A program made the translations under genes and the position numbers. Positions 18,906 to 43,557 of a DNA stretch of 62,753 nt are shown in pieces. Each line of letters begins with the position of its first letter. Within the stretch, counting starts at the first letter, position 1. Origin of the DNA: Verrucomicrobiota bacterium (GTDB lineage: Bacteria; Verrucomicrobiota; Verrucomicrobiia; Opitutales; Opitutaceae); the NCBI GenBank assembly GCA_030604905.1, contig JAUVVA010000007.1:1-62753 (forward strand), written 5' to 3'. A model generated the notes under the pieces. That model did no database searches and was not told where the DNA came from. It saw nothing but the letters and a program-made list of their open reading frames with translations.

Positions 18906-18981
18906 GGGGCGGTAGCTCAGTTGATAGAGCGCCTCGTTCGCAATGAGGAGGTCGTGGGTTTGATTCCCATCCGCTCCACCA
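18906..18981 (+). tRNA. tRNA-Ala(CGC)
   Basis: The 76-nt cloverleaf has acceptor arm GGGGCGG paired with CCGCTCC (one G-U), D-arm GCTC/GAGC, anticodon arm CCTCG-TTCGCAA-TGAGG with anticodon CGC reading GCG, and T-arm GTGGG-TTTGATT-CCCAT. The CCA end is encoded. GCG is a common Ala codon at this GC content. The gene converges on the ppx/gppA-family gene 15 bp away. Confidence 0.95.
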
Positions 18982-20107: not shown

Positions 20108-22855
20108 TTATTTCCGGGGCTTCGCCACGGGAGCGTCCGCCGCCGTGGCGGCGGCGCGGCCCGCGTAGTCCCAGACCGCGCGGCCCTCGTGGCTGGCGAA
20201 GCGGAGGCCGCGGATGTGTCGGCCTTCCAGCCCGAGGGCCGAGGCGGGGATCTCGAGAAGGGTCCACTCGCCGGGGCGGGGCAGGCCGCCGAGGCGAAGG
20301 CGCGTGGTGCGGGCCTCGCCGGGGCCGCCGGGCCCGCGGGCGATGAGATTCGCGCCCCAGTGGGCGGCGTGGACGCTCCCCTCGACGCTGGTGAACGCGA
20401 GCATGAGCTCGCGCGGCGGCCGGGCCGGATCGAGCCAGACGTGGACAAAGAGCGTGTCGCCCGCCTCGACCGCGAGCGGCGCCCCGGCGGCGACCTCGAG
20501 GTGATTGAAGGCGGTGCCGGTGGCCGGCCCGGTCTGGTGGGCGCGCAGGCCCGAGAACGGCGCGGGCGCCGTGCCCACCCAGAGCCAGTCTCCTCCGGCC
20601 TGGGTGTGGGCGAGCGCGCCCGGGGGCAGCTCGTCGTCGAGCCAGAGGCTGTCGCCGCGCGGAGCGGGCTCGGGGGCGGGCGGCGGGGGAGTCTTGGCGC
20701 GCGGCTCCTTGGGGCCGGGCTTGGCCCCGGGCTCCTTGTTCTCCTCGCCGGGGGCGGGGGAAGGCGAGGCGAGCGGATTGGCCACCTCGATCGCGAGCGC
20801 GGGCGAGAGGCGGGCGCGGCCGGCGTGGTCGACGGCGAGGGCGCTGAGGAAGCGCGTGCCGTTGGCGACGGAGCGGCTGTCCCAGGTCACGGTGTAGGGA
20901 GGAGTGGATACAGGCGGAGCGATCTCGCGGCCGTCGACGAGGAAGCTCACCCGCGCCACCGCGACGTCGTCCCAGGCCTGGGCGGAGAACGTGATGGCGT
21001 CTCCGGACAGGGGGCCCGCGGGCGGCGGATCGAGGAGCACGGTGGGCGGGGCGAGATCGGCGGGGGCGGGAGCGGCCGACCAAAGGGCGCCCTGGCCGAG
21101 GTTGTGGTAGCTGCCGCCGGTGCCGGTCTCGAGGCGGAGCGGGCGCACCAGGTAGACGGCGTCGGGGCCGGCGGGGGCGGGGTCGACGAAGCGACCGCCG
21201 AGGATCGGCGTCGTGCTCAGGCGGGTGAAGGCCGCGTCGCGGGCCGGGGCGCGGTAGACATGGTGGCCGAGCTCGGCGTCGGGCGAGGGCGTCCAGGTGA
21301 GCACGAGGCTCTCGGGGCGGGTCTCGCCGCGCAGCCCGGTGGGCGGGCGCAGCGGGTGGAGGCGCAGGGTGGGATCGCCCATCAGGGCGATGTGGACAAA
21401 GCCGGGCAGGGTGTTGACCGGCGCGCGGTAGGTCTGGCGGTTGTTTTGGGTGAGGAGGGTGGCCTCGCCGATAGTGCCGCCCGTGGCCATGGGGTGGAGG
21501 AACCAGTGGGGCCGGCCGGTCCAGGCGGCGGCGAGCCCGAGGCCGGGCGAGGCGAGGGAGGCGCGCAGCAGGTTGTCGGTCGTGTCCCAGTCGCCGAAGT
21601 AGCTTCCCATCAGAAAGGTGAAGACGGCGCGCGGTGCCTGGGTGGCGAAGGCCTGGCTGCTGGCGATGCCCTGCGCGCTGGTGAAGGTGCCCCAGCCCGC
21701 GCCAAAGGCGAGCAGGTGGTCCTCGGCGGCGAGGGTGGGCAACCACATGCCCGTGCGGCCGGGGAAGCGTGTATTGAGATTGGTGATACGGTCGGGGCCG
21801 ACGAGGGCGGAGAAGGCCGAGTAGACGCCGGTGGCGAAGGATTCGCCGCCGGCGAGGAAGCCGATGTGGTCGGCCGCGAGGGCGCGGCGCGTCACCGGCG
21901 TGCTGCCGTGGCGGAAGCGGTGGTTTTTCTCCAGATAGCGGCGGAGCAGCTCGGTCTCGCTCTCGGCAAACGCCGGCAGGCGGGAGAGGTCGACGCGGCC
22001 CACGGCGAGCTCGAGCTCGGAGGGCAGCGAGGAGTGGTCGAACTTGCCGTCGCCGGGCAGGTTGCTCAGCCGGGCGCGTTGTTCGGGGTCGGGGTGGGCG
22101 GTCTGGGTGAAGTCGACCCAGGAATCGCTCCACTCGCCGTCGAGGTCGCCATAGTAGGCGTCGGCCGGCCAGGCGCCGACGTGGTCGGCGTGGCCGTCGG
22201 GCGCCATGCGGCCCGAGTAGGGCACGGCGATGCGGCCGAGGAGGAAGACGCTGCGCACTTCGCCGGGGTGGGCGCGGGCGGCCTCGCGGATCAGGCTGCG
22301 GACGGCGGGAGGCGGCAGCTCGGGCGGGACGTCGTGCCGGAGCACCCGCCAGCCGTCGCCCGCGAGGTCGTCTTGCAGGCGGGCGAGCTCGGGGGCGAGG
22401 GCGGCCGAGTGGCGCTGGTCGACCAGGAGGACCAGCGCGCCGCGGCTCTCGACGGGCGGCAGGGCGATGGCGGCCTGGACATAGCCGTAGCCGGTGTAGG
22501 TGGCGTGCTGCTTGGTGATCTCGTATTCGTAGGCGAGGCCGGGCAGGGCGCTCGTGTCGGTGTAGGAGAGGGCGTCGCCGGGGAGCACGAGGGCCGGGCC
22601 CCAGCTGCTGTCGCCGGGGGCTTTGCGGCGGATGCTGTGGCTGAGCGGGGTCTGCACCGCGTCCGGTGCCCAGTGAAGCGTGATCGCGGGAGCGCTGGCA
22701 GCGTTGCTGATGCTGGCCTGGGCCTGCACCGCCTGATGATGCGAACTGGTTGCACGCAGGGTGGGGCAGGGGAGGCTGAGTCCCCCGGCGCAGAGCGCGA
22801 GGCCAAGCAGGCTGACTTTTGCAAATAACCTGTGAGCGATGTTGGGGGAGAACAT
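20108..22855 (-). CDS. Large secreted protein with degenerate C25 (gingipain-like) fold plus Ig/FN3-like domains
   Basis: A 915-residue exported protein (N-terminal hydrophobic segment LFAKVSLLGLALCAGGLSL). After a fibronectin-type segment (about 55-130), residues 160-530 resemble peptidase family C25: SVFLLGRIAVPYSGR, DAYYGDLDGEW, LAVGRVDLSRLP and ALMGDPTLRLHP. At the expected catalytic His-Gly the protein reads GAGWGTFTS, and at the catalytic Cys region FTFLMGSYFGDWD, so both nucleophile and base appear lost. The rest has FN3/Ig-like repeats, a Pro-rich linker rich in Lys-Glu-Pro-Gly, and a beta-sandwich (WTLLEIPASALGLEG) of carbohydrate-binding type. It is probably a cell-surface or secreted binding protein, not a protease. 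Confidence 0.7.
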   Translation of the reverse strand: MFSPNIAHRLFAKVSLLGLALCAGGLSLPCPTLRATSSHHQAVQAQASISNAASAPAITLHWAPDAVQTPLSHSIRRKAPGDSSWGPALVLPGDALSYTDTSALPGLAYEYEITKQHATYTGYGYVQAAIALPPVESRGALVLLVDQRHSAALAPELARLQDDLAGDGWRVLRHDVPPELPPPAVRSLIREAARAHPGEVRSVFLLGRIAVPYSGRMAPDGHADHVGAWPADAYYGDLDGEWSDSWVDFTQTAHPDPEQRARLSNLPGDGKFDHSSLPSELELAVGRVDLSRLPAFAESETELLRRYLEKNHRFRHGSTPVTRRALAADHIGFLAGGESFATGVYSAFSALVGPDRITNLNTRFPGRTGMWLPTLAAEDHLLAFGAGWGTFTSAQGIASSQAFATQAPRAVFTFLMGSYFGDWDTTDNLLRASLASPGLGLAAAWTGRPHWFLHPMATGGTIGEATLLTQNNRQTYRAPVNTLPGFVHIALMGDPTLRLHPLRPPTGLRGETRPESLVLTWTPSPDAELGHHVYRAPARDAAFTRLSTTPILGGRFVDPAPAGPDAVYLVRPLRLETGTGGSYHNLGQGALWSAAPAPADLAPPTVLLDPPPAGPLSGDAITFSAQAWDDVAVARVSFLVDGREIAPPVSTPPYTVTWDSRSVANGTRFLSALAVDHAGRARLSPALAIEVANPLASPSPAPGEENKEPGAKPGPKEPRAKTPPPPAPEPAPRGDSLWLDDELPPGALAHTQAGGDWLWVGTAPAPFSGLRAHQTGPATGTAFNHLEVAAGAPLAVEAGDTLFVHVWLDPARPPRELMLAFTSVEGSVHAAHWGANLIARGPGGPGEARTTRLRLGGLPRPGEWTLLEIPASALGLEGRHIRGLRFASHEGRAVWDYAGRAAATAADAPVAKPRK

Positions 22856-23413
22856 GCTGCAAGTCTAGGAGCCAGCAGCATCTTGGGGTATGCGGAGGGT
22901 TCCCTGAGCGACGCGAGGTGCTCTGTCCAGACCGGGCGCGCGCGCACCCGGTGTCGTCGTCCCCCCATGCCCTAGATAAAGCGGGGTTTTTTAACGCCGA
23001 CGGGGGCCGGACTGGGCGTGGCAAACCTAAGATAAAACAGGGGATAAGTCCCTAAAGATTTTGGCGATAAGGGATGCAAGGTTCCTGCTAATGGCCCCGC
23101 GGCCTCTAAGCTGGACGGACGCAAGACGCTGATTTTTCGAGGTTAAATGCTGGCCCCCCTTCGGGCCGGTCCTGTTCGGCGCGGTCGTCATTTTTTGCCC
23201 GTTTGGCATGAGTCAAGTTTCTTAATAGGCCTGTAATGGCCTATTTAGCAGGCCTAAAGCAACCTTGTTAAAAATTCATTCAGGCTTGTTTGGGGCAAAA
23301 GCCTTTACGTGGCATCTGGCACGCTGATCTCTCCGGGGTATTCCACCTAGTGTCTGGGGCTATCAGTTCGGGTGATCTAGGGGGAATATCTTAACTTAAA
23401 CAGAAAACTAACT
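22856..23413. other. Long regulatory region upstream of the first PEP-CTERM gene
   Basis: This 558-bp gap separates divergent genes and is clearly less GC-rich than its surroundings. It contains two diverged copies of a TAGATAAAGCGGGG-type motif (near 22971 and 23027), the dyad ATAGGCC-N6-GGCCTAT at 23225-23244 with a further GGCCTA half-site at 23251-23256, and a stem AGGCTT/AAGCCT at 23282-23304. A clear -35/-10 pair and a Shine-Dalgarno sequence were not found. No reading frame in it looks coding. Confidence 0.6.
23225..23244. promoter_or_regulatory. Candidate operator, ATAGGCC-N6-GGCCTAT
   Basis: This is a perfect 7-bp inverted repeat with a 6-bp spacer. The same design with one mismatch (GGTCTAT) occurs at 39139-39158 upstream of the second PEP-CTERM gene. 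A third half-site, GGCCTA, follows at 23251. Confidence 0.55.
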
Positions 23414-24304
23414 ATGAAAACACAACACATCGCCGTTCTCGCCGCGGCATTCACCGCTCTGTCCGTCGCGCCGGGGGCGTTTGGGCAAAACCTCTGGTTC
23501 GACTTGGTCGGCACAGGTGTCGGCGGCACCGGTGATTGGGTTGGCAACAATCGCTGGAATACCGCGAGCACTGGAGAGAATAATACTCGAGGCGCTTGGA
23601 TCGCCAACGCGCAGGCGTTCTTCGCAGGAGAAGCGGGCACCGTTACCGTTAACTCGGCAGTGACTGCTGGGAGCGTTACCTTTGATTCGTCTAACTTTAT
23701 TATCAGCGGCACCAACGCCCTTACCGTCACCGGCAGCATCACCACCAGCCCCGGAATCACCGCTACCATCAACGCTCCGCTTTCGGGCAGCCTCACCAAG
23801 GCGGGCACTGGCACCCTGATCCTCGGCGGCACCCAGTCCTACACCGGCGCCACCAACATTAACGCCGGCACCCTCCGCATCACCGCGCCCAGCGCGCTGC
23901 CGAGCGGCACCAACGTCAGCTTCGCTTCGGCCATCTCCGGTGCCACGTTCCAGCTCGCCTCGGGTGGCAGCTACAACGCCGGCACGCTCACCCTGCCGTC
24001 CGCTGGTGAAGCCATTATCGACTTCGCTGGCCTGACGAACGCTCAGTTCACCTTTGCCGCCCTCTCGGGAGGAAGTGGCAGTGTGCTCAACGTGATCAAC
24101 TACACTCACTCCGGGACGAACTTCCTTCAGTTCAACAACGTGACTGGTTTTAGCGGAAACGTGCTGATCAACGGCGCTCCGGCCTTCCTCGTTGATGGTG
24201 TCGTCTCCCCCATCCCCGAGCCCGCCTCCTTCGCGCTCATCGGCTCGCTCGCGGCCCTTGGCTTCGCGGCCACCCGCCGCCGTCGCCAGGCCGTCGCCGC
24301 CTGA
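23414..24304 (+). CDS. PEP-CTERM protein with autotransporter-associated beta-strand repeat
   Basis: A 296-residue exported surface protein. It has a signal peptide (MKTQHIAVLAAAFTALSVAPGAFG). The middle is Gly/Thr/Asn-rich beta-helix sequence with one clear beta-strand repeat (LTKAGTGTLILGGTQSYTGA, then INAGTLRI). The C-terminal sorting tail is the Pro-Glu-Pro motif (IPEPASFALIGSLAALGF) followed by a hydrophobic stretch and RRRRQ. Such tails are recognised by an exosortase, which is not encoded in this window. Codon use is less GC-extreme than in neighbours. The start lacks an obvious ribosome-binding site. A terminator follows at 24355. Confidence 0.88.
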   Translation: MKTQHIAVLAAAFTALSVAPGAFGQNLWFDLVGTGVGGTGDWVGNNRWNTASTGENNTRGAWIANAQAFFAGEAGTVTVNSAVTAGSVTFDSSNFIISGTNALTVTGSITTSPGITATINAPLSGSLTKAGTGTLILGGTQSYTGATNINAGTLRITAPSALPSGTNVSFASAISGATFQLASGGSYNAGTLTLPSAGEAIIDFAGLTNAQFTFAALSGGSGSVLNVINYTHSGTNFLQFNNVTGFSGNVLINGAPAFLVDGVVSPIPEPASFALIGSLAALGFAATRRRRQAVAA

Positions 24305-37701: not shown

Positions 37702-39138
37702 GTGAACGACGCCTCCGCCTCCGCCGACTCCCCGAGCAGCTCCGACTCGCTTGCGCCCTTCGCGCCGGCCGCGGGCGACCGCGCCACCTGGATGCGCCAC
37801 CTCAAAGCGCTCGAGCTGCCCGCCGGCGCCACCCTGTTTCGCCAGGGCGACCCCGCCGACTTCCTCTGCTTTGTCGAGAGCGGCGAGCTCGCCGTCGTGC
37901 TCGAGGTGCCGGGCGCCGGTCGCGTGCCGGTCCGCCGTTTCGGCCCCGGCCAGTGCCTGGGCGAGATGGCGCTCTACCGCCGCGACACCCGCGCGGCGAG
38001 CGTCGAGGCCCTCGCGCCCTCGCGCCTCTTGCGCCTCGGCATGGCGCAGCTCCGGGCGATCGAACAGGAGGCTCCCGCCCTGGCCCTCGCCATGCACCGC
38101 CACGTCGCCGGCCTGCTCGCCGAGCGCGTCGCCTTCGCCAACACCGAGCTCAAGGATCCGCTCGCGCGCCTCGCCCACGCCATCCGTGGATTGGCCGCGA
38201 GTCGCTTCGGCGAGACCGAGTGGGACCGCGCCGCGCTCGCCGCCGCCGCCCGCCGCCCCGACGAAGTGGGGGCCGTGGCCTCGGCGCTCGACCACCTGGT
38301 CGCGCAGTTGGGCGCCTATCTTCAGGAGCTCAAGACCGCCACCGCCCGCCGCGAGGCCATCGAGAGCGAGTTGCGCATCGCCGGCGAGATCCAGGCCAGT
38401 TTCCTGCCCCCGCCCTTCGCCCCGCCGGCCGCCCTGTCCTCGTCCGGCTCCGGCTCCGCCGGCGGACGGGTGGACTTTGCCGCCCGCATGAAGCCCGCCC
38501 GCGAGGCCGGCGGCGATCTCTACGACGGGTTTTTCCTGCCCGACGGGCGCTTCCTGTGCGTCGTCGGCGATGTCTCGGGCAAGGGCGTGTCGGCCGCGCT
38601 CTTCATGGCCGTCACCGCCACCGGCCTGCGCGCCCTCGCCCCCACCGCGCCCGACCCGGGCGAGCTGCTCACCCGGCTCAACCGCCTGCTCTGCGAGCGC
38701 AACGACACCCTGCAGTTTGTCACCGTCTTCGCCGCCCTGTTCGACCCCGCGAGCGGCGAGCTCGCCTGGGCCAACGCCGGCCACCCGCCACCGCTCCTGC
38801 AACGGGCCGAGGGTCGGGTGGAGCCGCTCGACGCGCCGCTGCGCGCCACGCCGCTCGCCGTCTTCGAGCAGAACGTCTATCCGACTTATCGCGCGCGTCT
38901 CGCCCCGGGGGACACGCTTCTGATCTTCAGCGACGGCGTCACCGAGGCCATCGATGCCTCGGACGCATTGTATGGCGACGCCCGTCTCGCCGCCCTGGTC
39001 GCCGGCCGCGCGCCGTCCGCGGCCGCCGGACTGGTCGAGGCCGTCTTGGCCGACGTCTTGGGCTTCGAGGCCGGCGCGCCGCAAGCCGATGACATCACGC
39101 TCGCCGCACTCCGCTTTTCCGCCCCGGTGACTCCGTAG
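37702..39138 (+). CDS. cNMP-binding domain fused to PP2C (SpoIIE/RsbU-type) phosphatase
   Basis: A 478-residue cytoplasmic protein from GTG 37702. Residues about 30-150 are a CRP-type cyclic-nucleotide-binding domain (LELPAGATLFRQGDPADFLC, GPGQCLGEMALYRRDTR). A helical linker of about 80 residues follows. Residues about 230-470 are a SpoIIE/RsbU phosphatase (GDVSGKGVSAALFM, AGHPPPLLQ, FSDGVTEAIDA) with the metal-binding Asp residues. Such proteins dephosphorylate anti-sigma-factor antagonists, so this may be the cNMP-responsive input of a partner-switching cascade. No antagonist or anti-sigma gene is adjacent. The TAG stop is right before a candidate operator (39139). Confidence 0.9.
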   Translation: MNDASASADSPSSSDSLAPFAPAAGDRATWMRHLKALELPAGATLFRQGDPADFLCFVESGELAVVLEVPGAGRVPVRRFGPGQCLGEMALYRRDTRAASVEALAPSRLLRLGMAQLRAIEQEAPALALAMHRHVAGLLAERVAFANTELKDPLARLAHAIRGLAASRFGETEWDRAALAAAARRPDEVGAVASALDHLVAQLGAYLQELKTATARREAIESELRIAGEIQASFLPPPFAPPAALSSSGSGSAGGRVDFAARMKPAREAGGDLYDGFFLPDGRFLCVVGDVSGKGVSAALFMAVTATGLRALAPTAPDPGELLTRLNRLLCERNDTLQFVTVFAALFDPASGELAWANAGHPPPLLQRAEGRVEPLDAPLRATPLAVFEQNVYPTYRARLAPGDTLLIFSDGVTEAIDASDALYGDARLAALVAGRAPSAAAGLVEAVLADVLGFEAGAPQADDITLAALRFSAPVTP

Positions 39139-39158
39139 ATAGGCCTAGACGGGTCTAT
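39139..39158. promoter_or_regulatory. Candidate operator, ATAGGCC-N6-GGTCTAT
   Basis: This is the same design as the dyad at 23225-23244 (7-bp arms, 6-bp spacer), with one mismatch. It starts immediately after the stop codon of the preceding gene. TTTACTTGCGGC (39160-39171) follows, and a possible TATGCT -10 lies at 39186-39191. Confidence 0.55.
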
Positions 39159-39213
39159 TTTTACTTGCGGCTAGGGCTTATTGCCTATGCTTGACGGAAG
39201 TTTTACCGATTTC

Positions 39214-42200
39214 ATGCGCCCGCGTCGCCCACATCGAGCTTCCTTGCGCCGCCCCGCCCGTGCGGGTCGGGGCGTCTCGGCGGGCGCGCTCGCCCTTTTT
39301 GCGCTCTTGCAGGCGCCCGCCTTCGCGCAGTCGGTCACCTTTACCGAGAGTTTTACCGGCACGAGCGCGCCCGGCTGGGTGTTTGGTGGCAACTACACCC
39401 CGTGGTTGACCGCCGGCAGCAACCCCAACGGCGGCCCGGGAGCCATCGACCCGGTCGGCGATGGCTGGCTGCGCCTCACCGACAACGCCAACAACCGCTC
39501 CACCTTCGCCTTGCTCGACACCGAGATTTTCTCGGTCAACGCGCGCATCGAGATCACGATGGAGTATGCCTTCTGGAACGGCACCGGCGCCGACGGCATC
39601 ACCTTCTTTCTCGTCGACGGCAGGGTGAATGCCTCGACTTTCCAGCCCGGCGGCTACGGCGGCTCGCTCGGTTATGCCCAGCGCGACGGCATCCCCGGCA
39701 TGCCGGGCGGCTACCTCGGCTTTGGTTTCGACAACTTCGGCAACTTCTCCAACCCCACCGAAGGCCGTGTCGGCGGCACCGGCATGGTGCCCAACGCCAT
39801 CGCGGTCCGCGGCCCCGAGTCCTCCAACTACGCCTTCATCGCCGGGTCCGGTCCGCTCCAAAATCTTTCCGGTGGCGGGCAGATGGATTTTCCCTCCGCC
39901 ACCATCCGTCCCGACCAGGCCGGCTCCGGTTATCGGGCGTTTAAGATCATCTTCGACGCCAACAACCAGCTCACCGTGCAGATGAAGTTCGGCGCCTCGT
40001 CCGATTTCATCAACGCCTTCACCGCCGATCTCTCGGCCTTTGAGCGTCCCGAGACCTTCAAGATCGGCTTCACCGGCGCCACGGGCGGCTCCACCGAGAT
40101 TCACGAGGTGCGCAACATCCAGCTCGTCTCGACGCCCTGGTCCTCCGGCTCCGGCGCCTACGAGTGGGACCATGGCGCCACTTCCACCACCTGGGGCACG
40201 AGCAACGGCGGCGAGACCAACGCCAACTGGTTTTCCGCGGTCCCCGCCAACGACAACCGCACGCCCACCCCCGGCTCCGACATCCTCTTCGGCGCCCGTC
40301 CCCCCACCGGGCCGCAGACGGTCGACATCGCGAACAACGTCTCCGTCCGCAACCTCACTTTCGACACGCCCCACAACTACACCTTGCAGGGGACCGGCAC
40401 GATCACCCTCGGCCGCGATGCCGATGGCAGGGGCCTGCCCTCGATCAACGTCAACAACTACAACGAGGCCAACGCCAACGGTCTGCACCGGATCAACAAC
40501 AATCTCGTCGTCCAGGAAAACCTCGCCGTCCGCAACTTCTCCTTCTCCACCCTCTGTCTCAACGGCGCGATCGATCTCGGCTCGCGCTCCATCACCACCT
40601 CCGGCTACGGCGCGATCAACTTCAACGGCCAGATCACCGGCTCCGGCCCCATCGTGATCAACGGCGCGGTCTCGGATCCCGTGCGCGGCCAGGGCATCGT
40701 CACGATCTCCGGCAACAACGCCTCCAGCTACACCGGCGCGATCACGGTCAACCGCGGGCAACTCGTCGTCGGCTCCAACGGCGCGCTCGGCAACACCGCG
40801 GTTGGCACCACGGTCAACGATGGCGGCACGCTCACCTTCCGCGGCGGCATCAGCACCGCCGAGCCCCTCACTCTTCGTGGTGGCGGCGCCACCCTTGGGA
40901 ACGACGCTTTCGGCGCCCCGATCCGCGCCGGCGCCCTCTACAACGACGGCGGCAATAACACCCTCTCCGGCTCGATCACCCTCGCCGCCAACACCGCCAT
41001 CGGCTCCCGCGACGGCACCCTCACCCTCACCGGCGCGCTTGGTGGCGGCAGCCGCGATCTCATCAAGATCGGGGACGGCACCGTCCATATTCAGAGCGCC
41101 CCCGGCGGTCTCCATGGGGCCGCGTTTGTCATCCAAGGTGGCACCCTTCGTTTCGACGCCTCCTCCTTCAGCACCGCGATGAACTACCGCCTCGACGGCG
41201 GCGTGCTCGGCCTCGGGCAAAACCTCACCATCGGCTTTGGCACCGGCAACAACGCCCTGCGCTGGACGGGTGATGGTGGCTTCGCCGCTTATGGCGCCGA
41301 CCGAACCGTCGCCCTCGATTGGTGGGGTGGCAACGTCGTGAACTGGGGCACCACCACCCACTTCGTTCAGGACGGCCGAGCGTTGATCCTTGGGTCCAAC
41401 ACCGCGACCCACACCCTCACGCTTGAGAACCCGATCAACCTCGGCTCCTCGCTCCGCGAGATCCGCGTCATCGACGGCGTCTCCAACGCCACCGGTGCGG
41501 TCGACGGTCGCCTCTCCGGCGCCATCACCGGCACGGGCGGGCTCCTCGTCACCGGCAACGGCACGCTCGACCTCTCCTCCACCTCCAACACCTACTCCGG
41601 GGCCACGGTGCTTGCCGGCGGCGCTCTGCGCGGCAACGTCTCGCCCAACTCGAATCTTCAGCTCGCGGGCGGCGTGCGCGAACTGGGCGGCAACGCCTCG
41701 CTCAATTTGGGTTCGGGTGCCGGGCAGGTGCGCTGGACTGGCGACGGCGGCTTCTCCGCCACCGGCGGCGCCCGCAGCCTCACGCTGAATGGCGGCGCCG
41801 GGCTCACCTGGGGCGGTGCCTCCCCCACCGCCGGCTTCGTGGCCGCCGGCAACACCCTCGTCTTCGGTTCCACCAGCGCCGACAACACGGTCACGTTGAC
41901 CAATGCGCTCACCCTCGGCGGCACCGCCGCCGATACCCGCACGATCCGCACCGTCGCCGGCACCAACGCGTCCGCCGCTTCGGGCGCGCTCTCGGGCGTC
42001 GTCTCCGGCGCCGCCGGCCTCGCCGTCACCGGCAACGGTCGCCTCGATCTGAGCGCCGCCAACACGCACAGCGGCGCCGTCACCGTGACCGGCGCGGAGC
42101 TGCGCCTCACCGGCTCGGGCACGCTCGCCCAGTCCTCCGGCTTTGTCGTCCGGCAAGGTGGTTCGCTCGTGCTCGACAACGCTTCCACGATCGTGGGCGA

Positions 42201-43557
42201 CCGGGTGGGCAACAACGCAGGCGTCACGCTCTCCGGGGGCACCCTCTCGTTCATCGGCAGCACTTCCAACAACACGCAGGTCATCGAGACCATCGGTGGC
42301 ATCACCCTCACCGCCGCCTCGGGCAACACCATCGAGATCGAGCGACGAAACACCAACCCCAATTCCCGTCACCGCCTGACCGCCGCCTCCCTGACGCGCG
42401 AGGCCGGCTCCACGGTCAATTTCACCGCCAGCTCGGGCACGCTGGGCGGAGGCGTTGGCTCAAATAATCCCACGCTCACGTTCACCACCGCTCCCGCCCT
42501 CGAGCAGACCATCCTTCCTTACGCGACGGTGAACGGCGCCGCCTTCGCCGGCTACAACACGACTGACGGTATCGTCGCCGTCGCCGGCACCAACACCGGT
42601 CAGGGCGACTGGACCGCTTCCACGATCGCCGCGCCCACCTCGAGCCAGGCGCTCGCCGCCAACCGCACCGTCGGCGCGCTCAACCTTGGCAACGCCATCA
42701 ACGTCACCGGCGCCCACACCCTCACCGTGCAGACCGGCGGCATCCTCGCCACCGGCACCGCCAGCACGATCTCCACCTCCGTCCTCAACGTCGGCGGCAC
42801 GGGCAACCGGGAACTCATCACCCACGTCTACGGCACGGGCGGCCTCACGATCAGCTCCTCGATCCAAAACAACGGCAACGTCACCGGCCTCACCAAGACC
42901 GGCGACGGCACCCTCACCCTCTCCGGCGGCACCGCCAACACCTACACCGGCCTCACCACCGTAAACGCCGGCACCCTCGTCCTCGGCAAGACCGCCGGCG
43001 TGAACGCCATCGCGGGCGACGGCAATTCCGCCACGCCCGACCTCCTCGTCGGCGACGGGCGCGGCATCGACACCGTGCGCCTCGGCGCCTCGGAGCAGAT
43101 CGCCAACACCGCCCACGTCGTCCTGCGCGGCGGCGACGTCGGCGCCTCCGACGGGCGCGCCGTGCTCGATCTCAACGGCCAGACCGAGACCTTCCATACC
43201 CTCCGCATCGAGGGGCACAGCATTCTCGACTTTTCCGGTGGCACCTCCTGCGCGCCCACCTTCCTGCGTCTGACGGTCCTCGATATCGCGGCCAACGCCG
43301 TGCTCACGATCCGCAATTGGATCGAGTTTACCGATTTTCTGCTGGTCGAGAAAACCAGCTTCGACCCCACGCAGATGCCGCGGGTCGTGTTTGATGGTTA
43401 TGGCGGCGAGGCCTCCTGGCGCAGTTACGATTCGACCTACTTCCAGATCATGCCCTTCGCGCCGGTGCCCGAGCCCTCGGCCTATGGCGCGCTCGCCGCG
43501 CTGGGTCTCGCCGGCTGGTTCGCCACCCGCCGCCGTCGTCGCTCCGCTTTGTCGTAG
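39214..43557 (+). CDS. Giant PEP-CTERM surface protein: L-type lectin plus autotransporter beta-strand repeats
   Basis: A 1447-residue exported protein. ATG 39214 is preferred to the upstream ATG 39187 because the latter overlaps the likely -10 box; the signal peptide is GVSAGALALFALLQAPAFAQ. Residues about 40-260 form an L-type (legume-like) lectin domain (MEYAFWNGTGADGITFFLVD, GGYLGFGFDNFGNFS, GYRAFKIIFD). From about 300 to 1350 there are many beta-strand repeats, among them SSYTGAITVNRGQLVVGSNG, NTYSGATVLAGGALRGN and YTGLTTVNAGTLVLGKT. The C-terminus is PVPEPSAYGALAALGLAGWF followed by RRRRR, a PEP-CTERM sorting signal. It is probably a large surface adhesin or matrix protein that binds sugars. 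Confidence 0.88.
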   Translation: MRPRRPHRASLRRPARAGRGVSAGALALFALLQAPAFAQSVTFTESFTGTSAPGWVFGGNYTPWLTAGSNPNGGPGAIDPVGDGWLRLTDNANNRSTFALLDTEIFSVNARIEITMEYAFWNGTGADGITFFLVDGRVNASTFQPGGYGGSLGYAQRDGIPGMPGGYLGFGFDNFGNFSNPTEGRVGGTGMVPNAIAVRGPESSNYAFIAGSGPLQNLSGGGQMDFPSATIRPDQAGSGYRAFKIIFDANNQLTVQMKFGASSDFINAFTADLSAFERPETFKIGFTGATGGSTEIHEVRNIQLVSTPWSSGSGAYEWDHGATSTTWGTSNGGETNANWFSAVPANDNRTPTPGSDILFGARPPTGPQTVDIANNVSVRNLTFDTPHNYTLQGTGTITLGRDADGRGLPSINVNNYNEANANGLHRINNNLVVQENLAVRNFSFSTLCLNGAIDLGSRSITTSGYGAINFNGQITGSGPIVINGAVSDPVRGQGIVTISGNNASSYTGAITVNRGQLVVGSNGALGNTAVGTTVNDGGTLTFRGGISTAEPLTLRGGGATLGNDAFGAPIRAGALYNDGGNNTLSGSITLAANTAIGSRDGTLTLTGALGGGSRDLIKIGDGTVHIQSAPGGLHGAAFVIQGGTLRFDASSFSTAMNYRLDGGVLGLGQNLTIGFGTGNNALRWTGDGGFAAYGADRTVALDWWGGNVVNWGTTTHFVQDGRALILGSNTATHTLTLENPINLGSSLREIRVIDGVSNATGAVDGRLSGAITGTGGLLVTGNGTLDLSSTSNTYSGATVLAGGALRGNVSPNSNLQLAGGVRELGGNASLNLGSGAGQVRWTGDGGFSATGGARSLTLNGGAGLTWGGASPTAGFVAAGNTLVFGSTSADNTVTLTNALTLGGTAADTRTIRTVAGTNASAASGALSGVVSGAAGLAVTGNGRLDLSAANTHSGAVTVTGAELRLTGSGTLAQSSGFVVRQGGSLVLDNASTIVGDRVGNNAGVTLSGGTLSFIGSTSNNTQVIETIGGITLTAASGNTIEIERRNTNPNSRHRLTAASLTREAGSTVNFTASSGTLGGGVGSNNPTLTFTTAPALEQTILPYATVNGAAFAGYNTTDGIVAVAGTNTGQGDWTASTIAAPTSSQALAANRTVGALNLGNAINVTGAHTLTVQTGGILATGTASTISTSVLNVGGTGNRELITHVYGTGGLTISSSIQNNGNVTGLTKTGDGTLTLSGGTANTYTGLTTVNAGTLVLGKTAGVNAIAGDGNSATPDLLVGDGRGIDTVRLGASEQIANTAHVVLRGGDVGASDGRAVLDLNGQTETFHTLRIEGHSILDFSGGTSCAPTFLRLTVLDIAANAVLTIRNWIEFTDFLLVEKTSFDPTQMPRVVFDGYGGEASWRSYDSTYFQIMPFAPVPEPSAYGALAALGLAGWFATRRRRRSALS

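Follow-up and report, generated by a model that had tools for sequence, protein, structure and literature searches.

PEP-CTERM sorting was defined in a 2006 paper, which reported a DNA motif, that of the PrsK/PrsR system, in Proteobacteria only, and held that more regulators and motifs were still to be found, also outside Proteobacteria (PMC1569441). A Desulfovibrio response regulator that binds PEP-CTERM targets has been shown (PMC3333781). Other relevant systems are those of the NarL/FixJ type, and EpsA (TIGR03020), a LuxR-type protein associated with XrtB and PEP-CTERM.

We analysed a window of 62 753 nucleotides (the whole stretch of DNA studied), which is one entire contig (C226) of the Verrucomicrobiota genome G000 (4.19 Mb, 234 contigs, 81% complete). 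What we describe shares with PrsK/PrsR/RpoN (PMC1569441, PMC9850573) an array of boxes upstream of individual PEP-CTERM genes whose leader is long, and has a sigma-54-like element near gene 1; it differs in the sequence of the box and in that most PEP-CTERM genes are without one. As in NarL/FixJ systems, a regulator with receiver and GerE domains and a HisKA_3 kinase stand in one cluster. Multiple boxes per promoter are common to this case and to the NarL and DevR sites (PMC4549865), but the boxes here are RGGCCY repeats 10–14 bp apart and pseudopilins and surface proteins are the candidate targets. Systems of this kind are already known; the box, the targets and the phylum were not met in the open-access papers searched, where (subscription papers and preprints lying outside) we found no paper on a combination of pseudopilins, PEP-CTERM proteins and a two-component system, the nearest being one Desulfovibrio paper. 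It is possible, although we lean slightly against it, that a Verrucomicrobiota system of a CHASE4 kinase and a NarL-type regulator co-ordinates pseudopilin fibres and a subset of PEP-CTERM proteins through RGGCCY boxes in tandem, outside Proteobacteria and unlike PrsK/PrsR. If true, pseudopilins would be tied to exosortase-sorted proteins. With the box and the genes for regulator and kinase now named, this one non-proteobacterial case can be tested by a single binding assay.

The features around the first PEP-CTERM gene of the window (gene 1) are the following.

20108–22855, minus strand: divergent neighbour of gene 1, 915 aa, with an Ig-like domain and a weak C25 peptidase match (Pfam)
23224–23351, plus strand: block conserved in both genomes with gene 1 (blastn 76% identity, E 2.2e-14; alignment)
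23225–23244, no strand: dyad 1, ATAGGCC-N6-GGCCTAT (direct reading and pattern search)
23226–23233, plus strand: box 1, TAGGCCTG, retained in the sister genome G013
23237–23244, plus strand: box 2, TGGCCTAT, the right arm of dyad 1, lost in G013; first half of the model match described below
23249–23256, plus strand: box 3, CAGGCCTA, a third half-site, retained in G013; second half of the model match (23237–23260)
23310–23325, plus strand: GG-N10-GC, sigma-54-like, of uncertain function, retained in G000 and G013; score 18.0
23414–24304, plus strand: PEP-CTERM gene 1, 296 aa, with one autotransporter-type beta-strand repeat (Pfam/TIGR02595)

Positions 23226–23256 form a tandem array of GGCC-centred boxes upstream of gene 1. 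The upstream block matches in two of 252 genomes of the family, G000 and G013, and a search of genome contigs found no gene 1 orthologue beyond G013. The latter genome, of the same genus, carries the orthologues of genes 1 and 2 together with their neighbours. Between the two genomes the footprint extends over 128 bp at 76% identity and starts at box 1. AATAGGCCTG and TAG-AGGCCT are retained in the alignment at a spacing of 22 to 23 bp, and the middle GGCCTAT has become GGATTCA in G013. The later conserved blocks include CCTTTACGTGGCA and GC-CGCTGA, which contain GG-N10-GC. Scored against the sigma-54 consensus, this element falls at the 95th percentile of a set of 2000 random pieces. On its 3' side, CCACCTAGT (23339–23351) and its surroundings are as well conserved between G000 and G013 as the boxes, and have no Rfam match. 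No known RNA element was found upstream of gene 1 at the Rfam gathering level, the best weak match being psbNH (E 1.1, 23150–23176). Dyad 1 is not listed by the terminator scan, and the bases that follow it are TTAGC, with no T run. A direct-repeat pair, TAGGCCT-N14..19-AGGCCT, was tried as a signature and rejected (23 matches in 19 of 57 genomes, with no excess over the reversed control); its sole matches in G000 and G013 are the gene 1 sites.

The features around the second PEP-CTERM gene are the following.

37702–39138, plus strand: cNMP-binding/SpoIIE-type phosphatase gene ending at dyad 2 (Pfam; synteny with G013)
39139–39158, no strand: dyad 2, ATAGGCC-N6-GGTCTAT, possibly part of the terminator of the upstream gene
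39140–39147, plus strand: single good box at dyad 2, TAGGCCTA; the G013 orthologue has TAGGCCTG instead
39214–43557, plus strand: PEP-CTERM gene 2, 1447 aa; start picked for the signal peptide, a TTG at 39181 being possible

The initial annotation had proposed the two dyads as the shared element of the only two PEP-CTERM genes of the window. Its description of them is accurate: dyad 1 lies where it was placed and has perfect arms, dyad 2 is one base off in one arm, the third half-site after dyad 1 is present, and every other place in the window has at least three mismatches in a pattern search. There are indeed two PEP-CTERM matches in the window (C226:24212 and C226:43465). The dyads were said to lie directly upstream of their genes; they end 169 bp from the ATG at 23414 of gene 1 and 55 bp from the likely ATG at 39214 of gene 2; the stop codon of the preceding gene, which adjoins dyad 2, had been left unmentioned.

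As dyads, however, the two are unremarkable, and as a pair they show no excess over chance. Thirty dinucleotide shuffles of the window contain on average 13.0 perfect 7-bp dyads whose loop is 6 bases long, where the window itself has 20. For pairs of dyads alike in sequence and of the grade of dyads 1 and 2, the shuffle mean is 7.6 and the window count 17, and each of the 30 shuffles holds at least one such pair. The 20-base dyad pattern was found in one of the 57 genomes searched, that of the window itself, and one arm of each dyad is lost in G013. The dyad also fails the genome scan proposed with it: allowing up to one mismatch, its core gave 15 strand-matches at eight places, against 32 for the reversed control. 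To judge from the alignments, the conserved unit is the box and not the dyad. Each box is palindromic in itself, which gives rise to the appearance of a dyad; since the middle arm is in addition lost in G013, the dyad is probably not the functional unit that it had been taken for. Conservation upstream of orthologues, also predicted, is seen in that at least one box per gene is kept; the sole genome with orthologues is G013. Nor are the two dyads of equal rank, as the annotation implied, because a model trained on pseudopilin promoters (see below) gives dyad 2 only 4.3 bits (E 5.3).

The box TAGGCCTA occurs at five places in G000. Its neighbours are gene 2, another PEP-CTERM gene (box at −199, and at −195 in the G013 orthologue), a pseudopilin gene (with a double box in G013), the gene of a secreted G8/CEMIP-like protein and a helicase gene. 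A double box, TAGGCCTCTGATAGGCCTATC (L239:2550–2620; G000 C49:44079), stands 119 bp before the gene of this secreted protein, whose domains are G8 and CEMIP beta-helix.

A pseudopilin query gave 30 matches in 15 of 57 genomes, and 23 of the 30 upstream stretches were examined. There are seven box arrays before pseudopilins, in G000, G013 (two), G009, G002, G017 and G028, that is, in six genomes of three genera. The other examined stretches have single boxes or none; none, for instance, precede three pseudopilin genes of G034, which yet have the same kind of regulator. Five of the seven arrays directly follow a response regulator gene (receiver and GerE), and the other two a PilX-like gene. These clusters also encode prepilin-like proteins (PilV-like, below the cut-off; N_methyl), a kinase with CHASE4, HisKA_3 and HATPase_c domains in G000, G009 and G013, and a PEP-CTERM protein in G000 and G013, its gene lying directly after the last pseudopilin operon (L275:2806–3735, G000 C86; L276:14121–15119, G013 C131). 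This PEP-CTERM gene has boxes in G000 and none in G013. Contigs C93 and C86 of G000 probably form one cluster because of the gene order in G013. Spacings between successive GGCC centres are 10 and 13 bp at gene 1, 10 and 14 bp in G017, and 10 bp followed by an incomplete third box in G028; in the pilin arrays of the genus, the spacing is 12 or 13 bp, then 14, 21 or 22 bp where a third box is visible. By this measure the three-box layout of gene 1 appears close to those of G017 and G028.

The best candidate for the regulator is encoded in the pilin cluster of G000, as is the kinase.

C93:30904–32598, strand not given: CHASE4/HisKA_3 sensor kinase of the pilin cluster
C93:38208–38906, strand not given: candidate response regulator of the pilin cluster, receiver and GerE

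The G000 regulator, whose orthologue in G013 is C131:26438–27127, has an N-terminal receiver domain (PF00072, E 7.9e-25) and a C-terminal helix–turn–helix of the GerE/LuxR type (PF00196, E 1.5e-17). D67, which from its position is presumably the phosphorylated residue, is invariant in the five regulators aligned, and so is the recognition helix TVKNYL, across three genera. The nearest solved relative is DevR/DosR (3c3w, E 8e-42), followed by VraR and NarL. We infer that the kinase and the regulator of the cluster are partners and that the regulator binds the boxes. Read by eye, the box arrays show neither the DevR consensus GGGACTTNNGNCCCT (PMC6448022) nor the 7-2-7 site described for NarL. 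EpsA matches the C-terminal part of the G009 regulator (E 5e-14); the match, at 52.5 bits against a cut-off of 170, covers the helix–turn–helix only, and the regulator here differs from EpsA in having a receiver domain.

A model (R1) was built from seven two-box units upstream of pseudopilins, from their sequence only, and contains no sequence of the window. The first two array alignments were poor, and the alignment used (A5) was made after G017 and G028 had been re-trimmed by eye to boxes 2–3; the gene 1 array was already known to the analyst at that time, although none of its sequence is in R1. The best match of R1 in the window is 23237–23260 (13.7 bits, E 0.0044), followed by the opposite strand of the same place (E 0.043) and by an unrelated place (E 0.41). 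Over 20 genomes there are 15 matches in eight genomes at E ≤ 0.5. Three of these are in G000: the training site, a new site at C93:38918–38949, and the window site (13.8 bits, E 0.285 over the 4.19 Mb). The new site lies 12 bp past the stop codon of the regulator gene, which stands directly before it, and near the contig end. Outside the pilin clusters, four other matches at E ≤ 0.5 lie inside predicted genes (G012 C18 and G002 C204), outside predicted genes (G004 C153) and between two genes (G002 C197).

A separate weight matrix has its top-ranking window match at gene 1, and dyad 2 comes sixth. Among 1000 column-permuted matrices, the best window hit fell on 23215–23262 for seven, and 52 reached the real best score anywhere in the window; permuted best hits within 300 bp upstream of gene 1 or gene 2 numbered 37 of 1000 (21 of 300 in a first run).

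There are 61 PEP-CTERM matches in G000 (genome profile search), among which the gene at C86:2806 is not counted; genes 1 and 2 pass TIGR02595 with 20.0 and 24.1 bits (cut-off 16). Upstream stretches of up to 260 nt were read for 60 of them, the C198 match, with an in-frame stop, being left out. As in all our surveys, simple scripts served to call genes and to choose starts; of the 60 starts, no fewer than seven are open to doubt (L042, L052, L077, L082, L083, L085 and L091). The dyad precedes two of the 60 genes, both in the window, which contradicts the expected enrichment before PEP-CTERM genes and led us to reject a general PEP-CTERM operator. Applied to 61 sources (the 60 loci and L275), R1 matches gene 1 alone. 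Given these two results, a general PEP-CTERM regulator is unsupported; what stands of the regulator of surface-protein genes first suggested is evidence for a shared cis element before genes for surface structures. R1 does not match the box sites of C179, C86 and C49. Of 11 further loci it matches the G013 pilin sites only. It misses the promoters that gene 1, gene 2 and the C97 PEP-CTERM gene have in G013, which is evidence against a simple shared motif.

TAGGCCT or AGGCCTA occurs upstream of four of the 60 PEP-CTERM genes (shuffle mean 0.7; none of 200 shuffles reaches four), and of two of 58 when the genes of the window are set aside. TAGGCCTR occurs at 82 places in G000, 67 inside script-called genes and 15 outside, at least C80, C145, C9 and C12 of the latter looking coding by eye. 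Three of the 15 belong to genes 1 and 2. Two more precede other PEP-CTERM genes, that of the pilin cluster at a distance of 131 bp and that of C179 at 191 bp; one precedes a pseudopilin gene by 69 bp, and another the gene of the secreted G8-domain protein by 119 bp. The remaining eight are unrelated or coding-like.

We propose that 23226–23256 would be an operator of tandem GGCC-centred boxes about one helical turn apart, and that its regulator would be of the NarL/DevR type, with the product of C93:38208–38906 as the best candidate. Once phosphorylated, this protein would bind the arrays before the pseudopilin operons and PEP-CTERM gene 1 and, less surely, those of gene 2, of the C179 and C86 PEP-CTERM genes and of the secreted G8-domain protein; pilus-like fibres and exosortase-sorted surface proteins would then be produced together. 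By analogy with NarL and DevR (PMC4549865), several dimers may bind co-operatively, and activation rather than repression would be expected. Gene 1 is fairly well supported by sequence comparison as a candidate target. Whether one two-component system serves both the pseudopilins and PEP-CTERM gene 1 through such an operator is in our estimation evenly balanced. Against it are the variable box spacing (10 to 14 or 22 bp) and the position of the regulator gene on a contig other than the window, and the sigma-54-like element at gene 1 would point to another kind of activator.

The array may instead be a real operator for another regulator that prefers a similar GGCC box, the pseudopilin regulon being separate. 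That R1 misses the G013 gene 1 promoter, that the window site has a genome-wide E of only 0.285 and that window and pilin cluster are without genetic linkage would all fit; we nevertheless consider it rather unlikely, the three R1 matches of G000 being two in the pilin cluster and the gene 1 site, with a three-box layout at gene 1 that resembles G017 and G028. Quite improbable, in our view, is a sigma-54 promoter at 23310–23325, with the boxes as the upstream activating site of an enhancer-binding protein, as in PrsK/PrsR/RpoN. GG-N10-GC is retained in both genomes. Its distance to the last box is about 53 bp and to the start codon about 88 bp, and both values fit the published layout (spacer mean 62.8, SD 10.6; leader mean 71, SD 38.5; PMC1569441). 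G000 has five activator domains (PF00158) and an rpoN fragment (TIGR02395), and G013 has eight and a whole rpoN; an activator pair, C115/C213, is without a close match in G005, G010 and G011, the three further genomes of the comparison. The promoter score, however, only equals that of the top twentieth of random pieces, the 17-base motif 1 of PrsR/RpoN, ending in TTTACA, is absent by eye from 23215–23413 (TTTACG only), and the boxes look like those next to a NarL-type regulator, a kind of protein that is no sigma-54 activator. The C115/C213 pair is a response regulator with a sigma-54 activator domain (L202:7933–9483 in G000 C115, 83% to G013 C213). As an activator tracking gene 1 it was rejected on the comparison of the five genomes, being unconnected to the boxes, and it is retained only within the sigma-54 reading.

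Dyad 2 is weak as a shared element, and far less certain than the gene 1 array. Its first base adjoins the stop codon of the cNMP/SpoIIE gene, and it is directly followed by TTTT. It could be a weak intrinsic terminator stem of that gene, or a chance match, and not an operator; to us this is a toss-up, and gene 2 is accordingly only weakly indicated as a candidate target, with the terminator as an equal rival. Besides its position and the T run, the fold (−11 kcal/mol, z −2.33; six of 200 shuffles as good), the low score under R1 and the dyad pairs of like grade in every shuffle favour the terminator or chance, whereas the terminator scan does not list dyad 2, the weight matrix places it sixth in the window, and two of the only five places with TAGGCCTA in G000 are upstream of PEP-CTERM genes. 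In G013, moreover, TAGGCCT is retained as TAGGCCTG at the matching place, with neither the right arm nor the T run of dyad 2. That genome has 62 forward and 62 reverse matches of TAGGCCTR in 4.9 Mb (palindromes counted twice), so that a chance hit in the gap of about 85 bp would have a probability of about 0.002, common ancestry being ignored.

Elsewhere in the window, Rfam identifies a 6S RNA gene and a tRNA gene (2071–2251 and 18906–18978). With a loose pattern, seven of the 60 PEP-CTERM genes of G000 (L060, L066, L067, L070, L075, L078 and L094) have a divergent frame with a LacI-type helix–turn–helix within 500 bp upstream of the start (two of 60 with a stricter pattern), which suggests gene-by-gene control of those PEP-CTERM genes.
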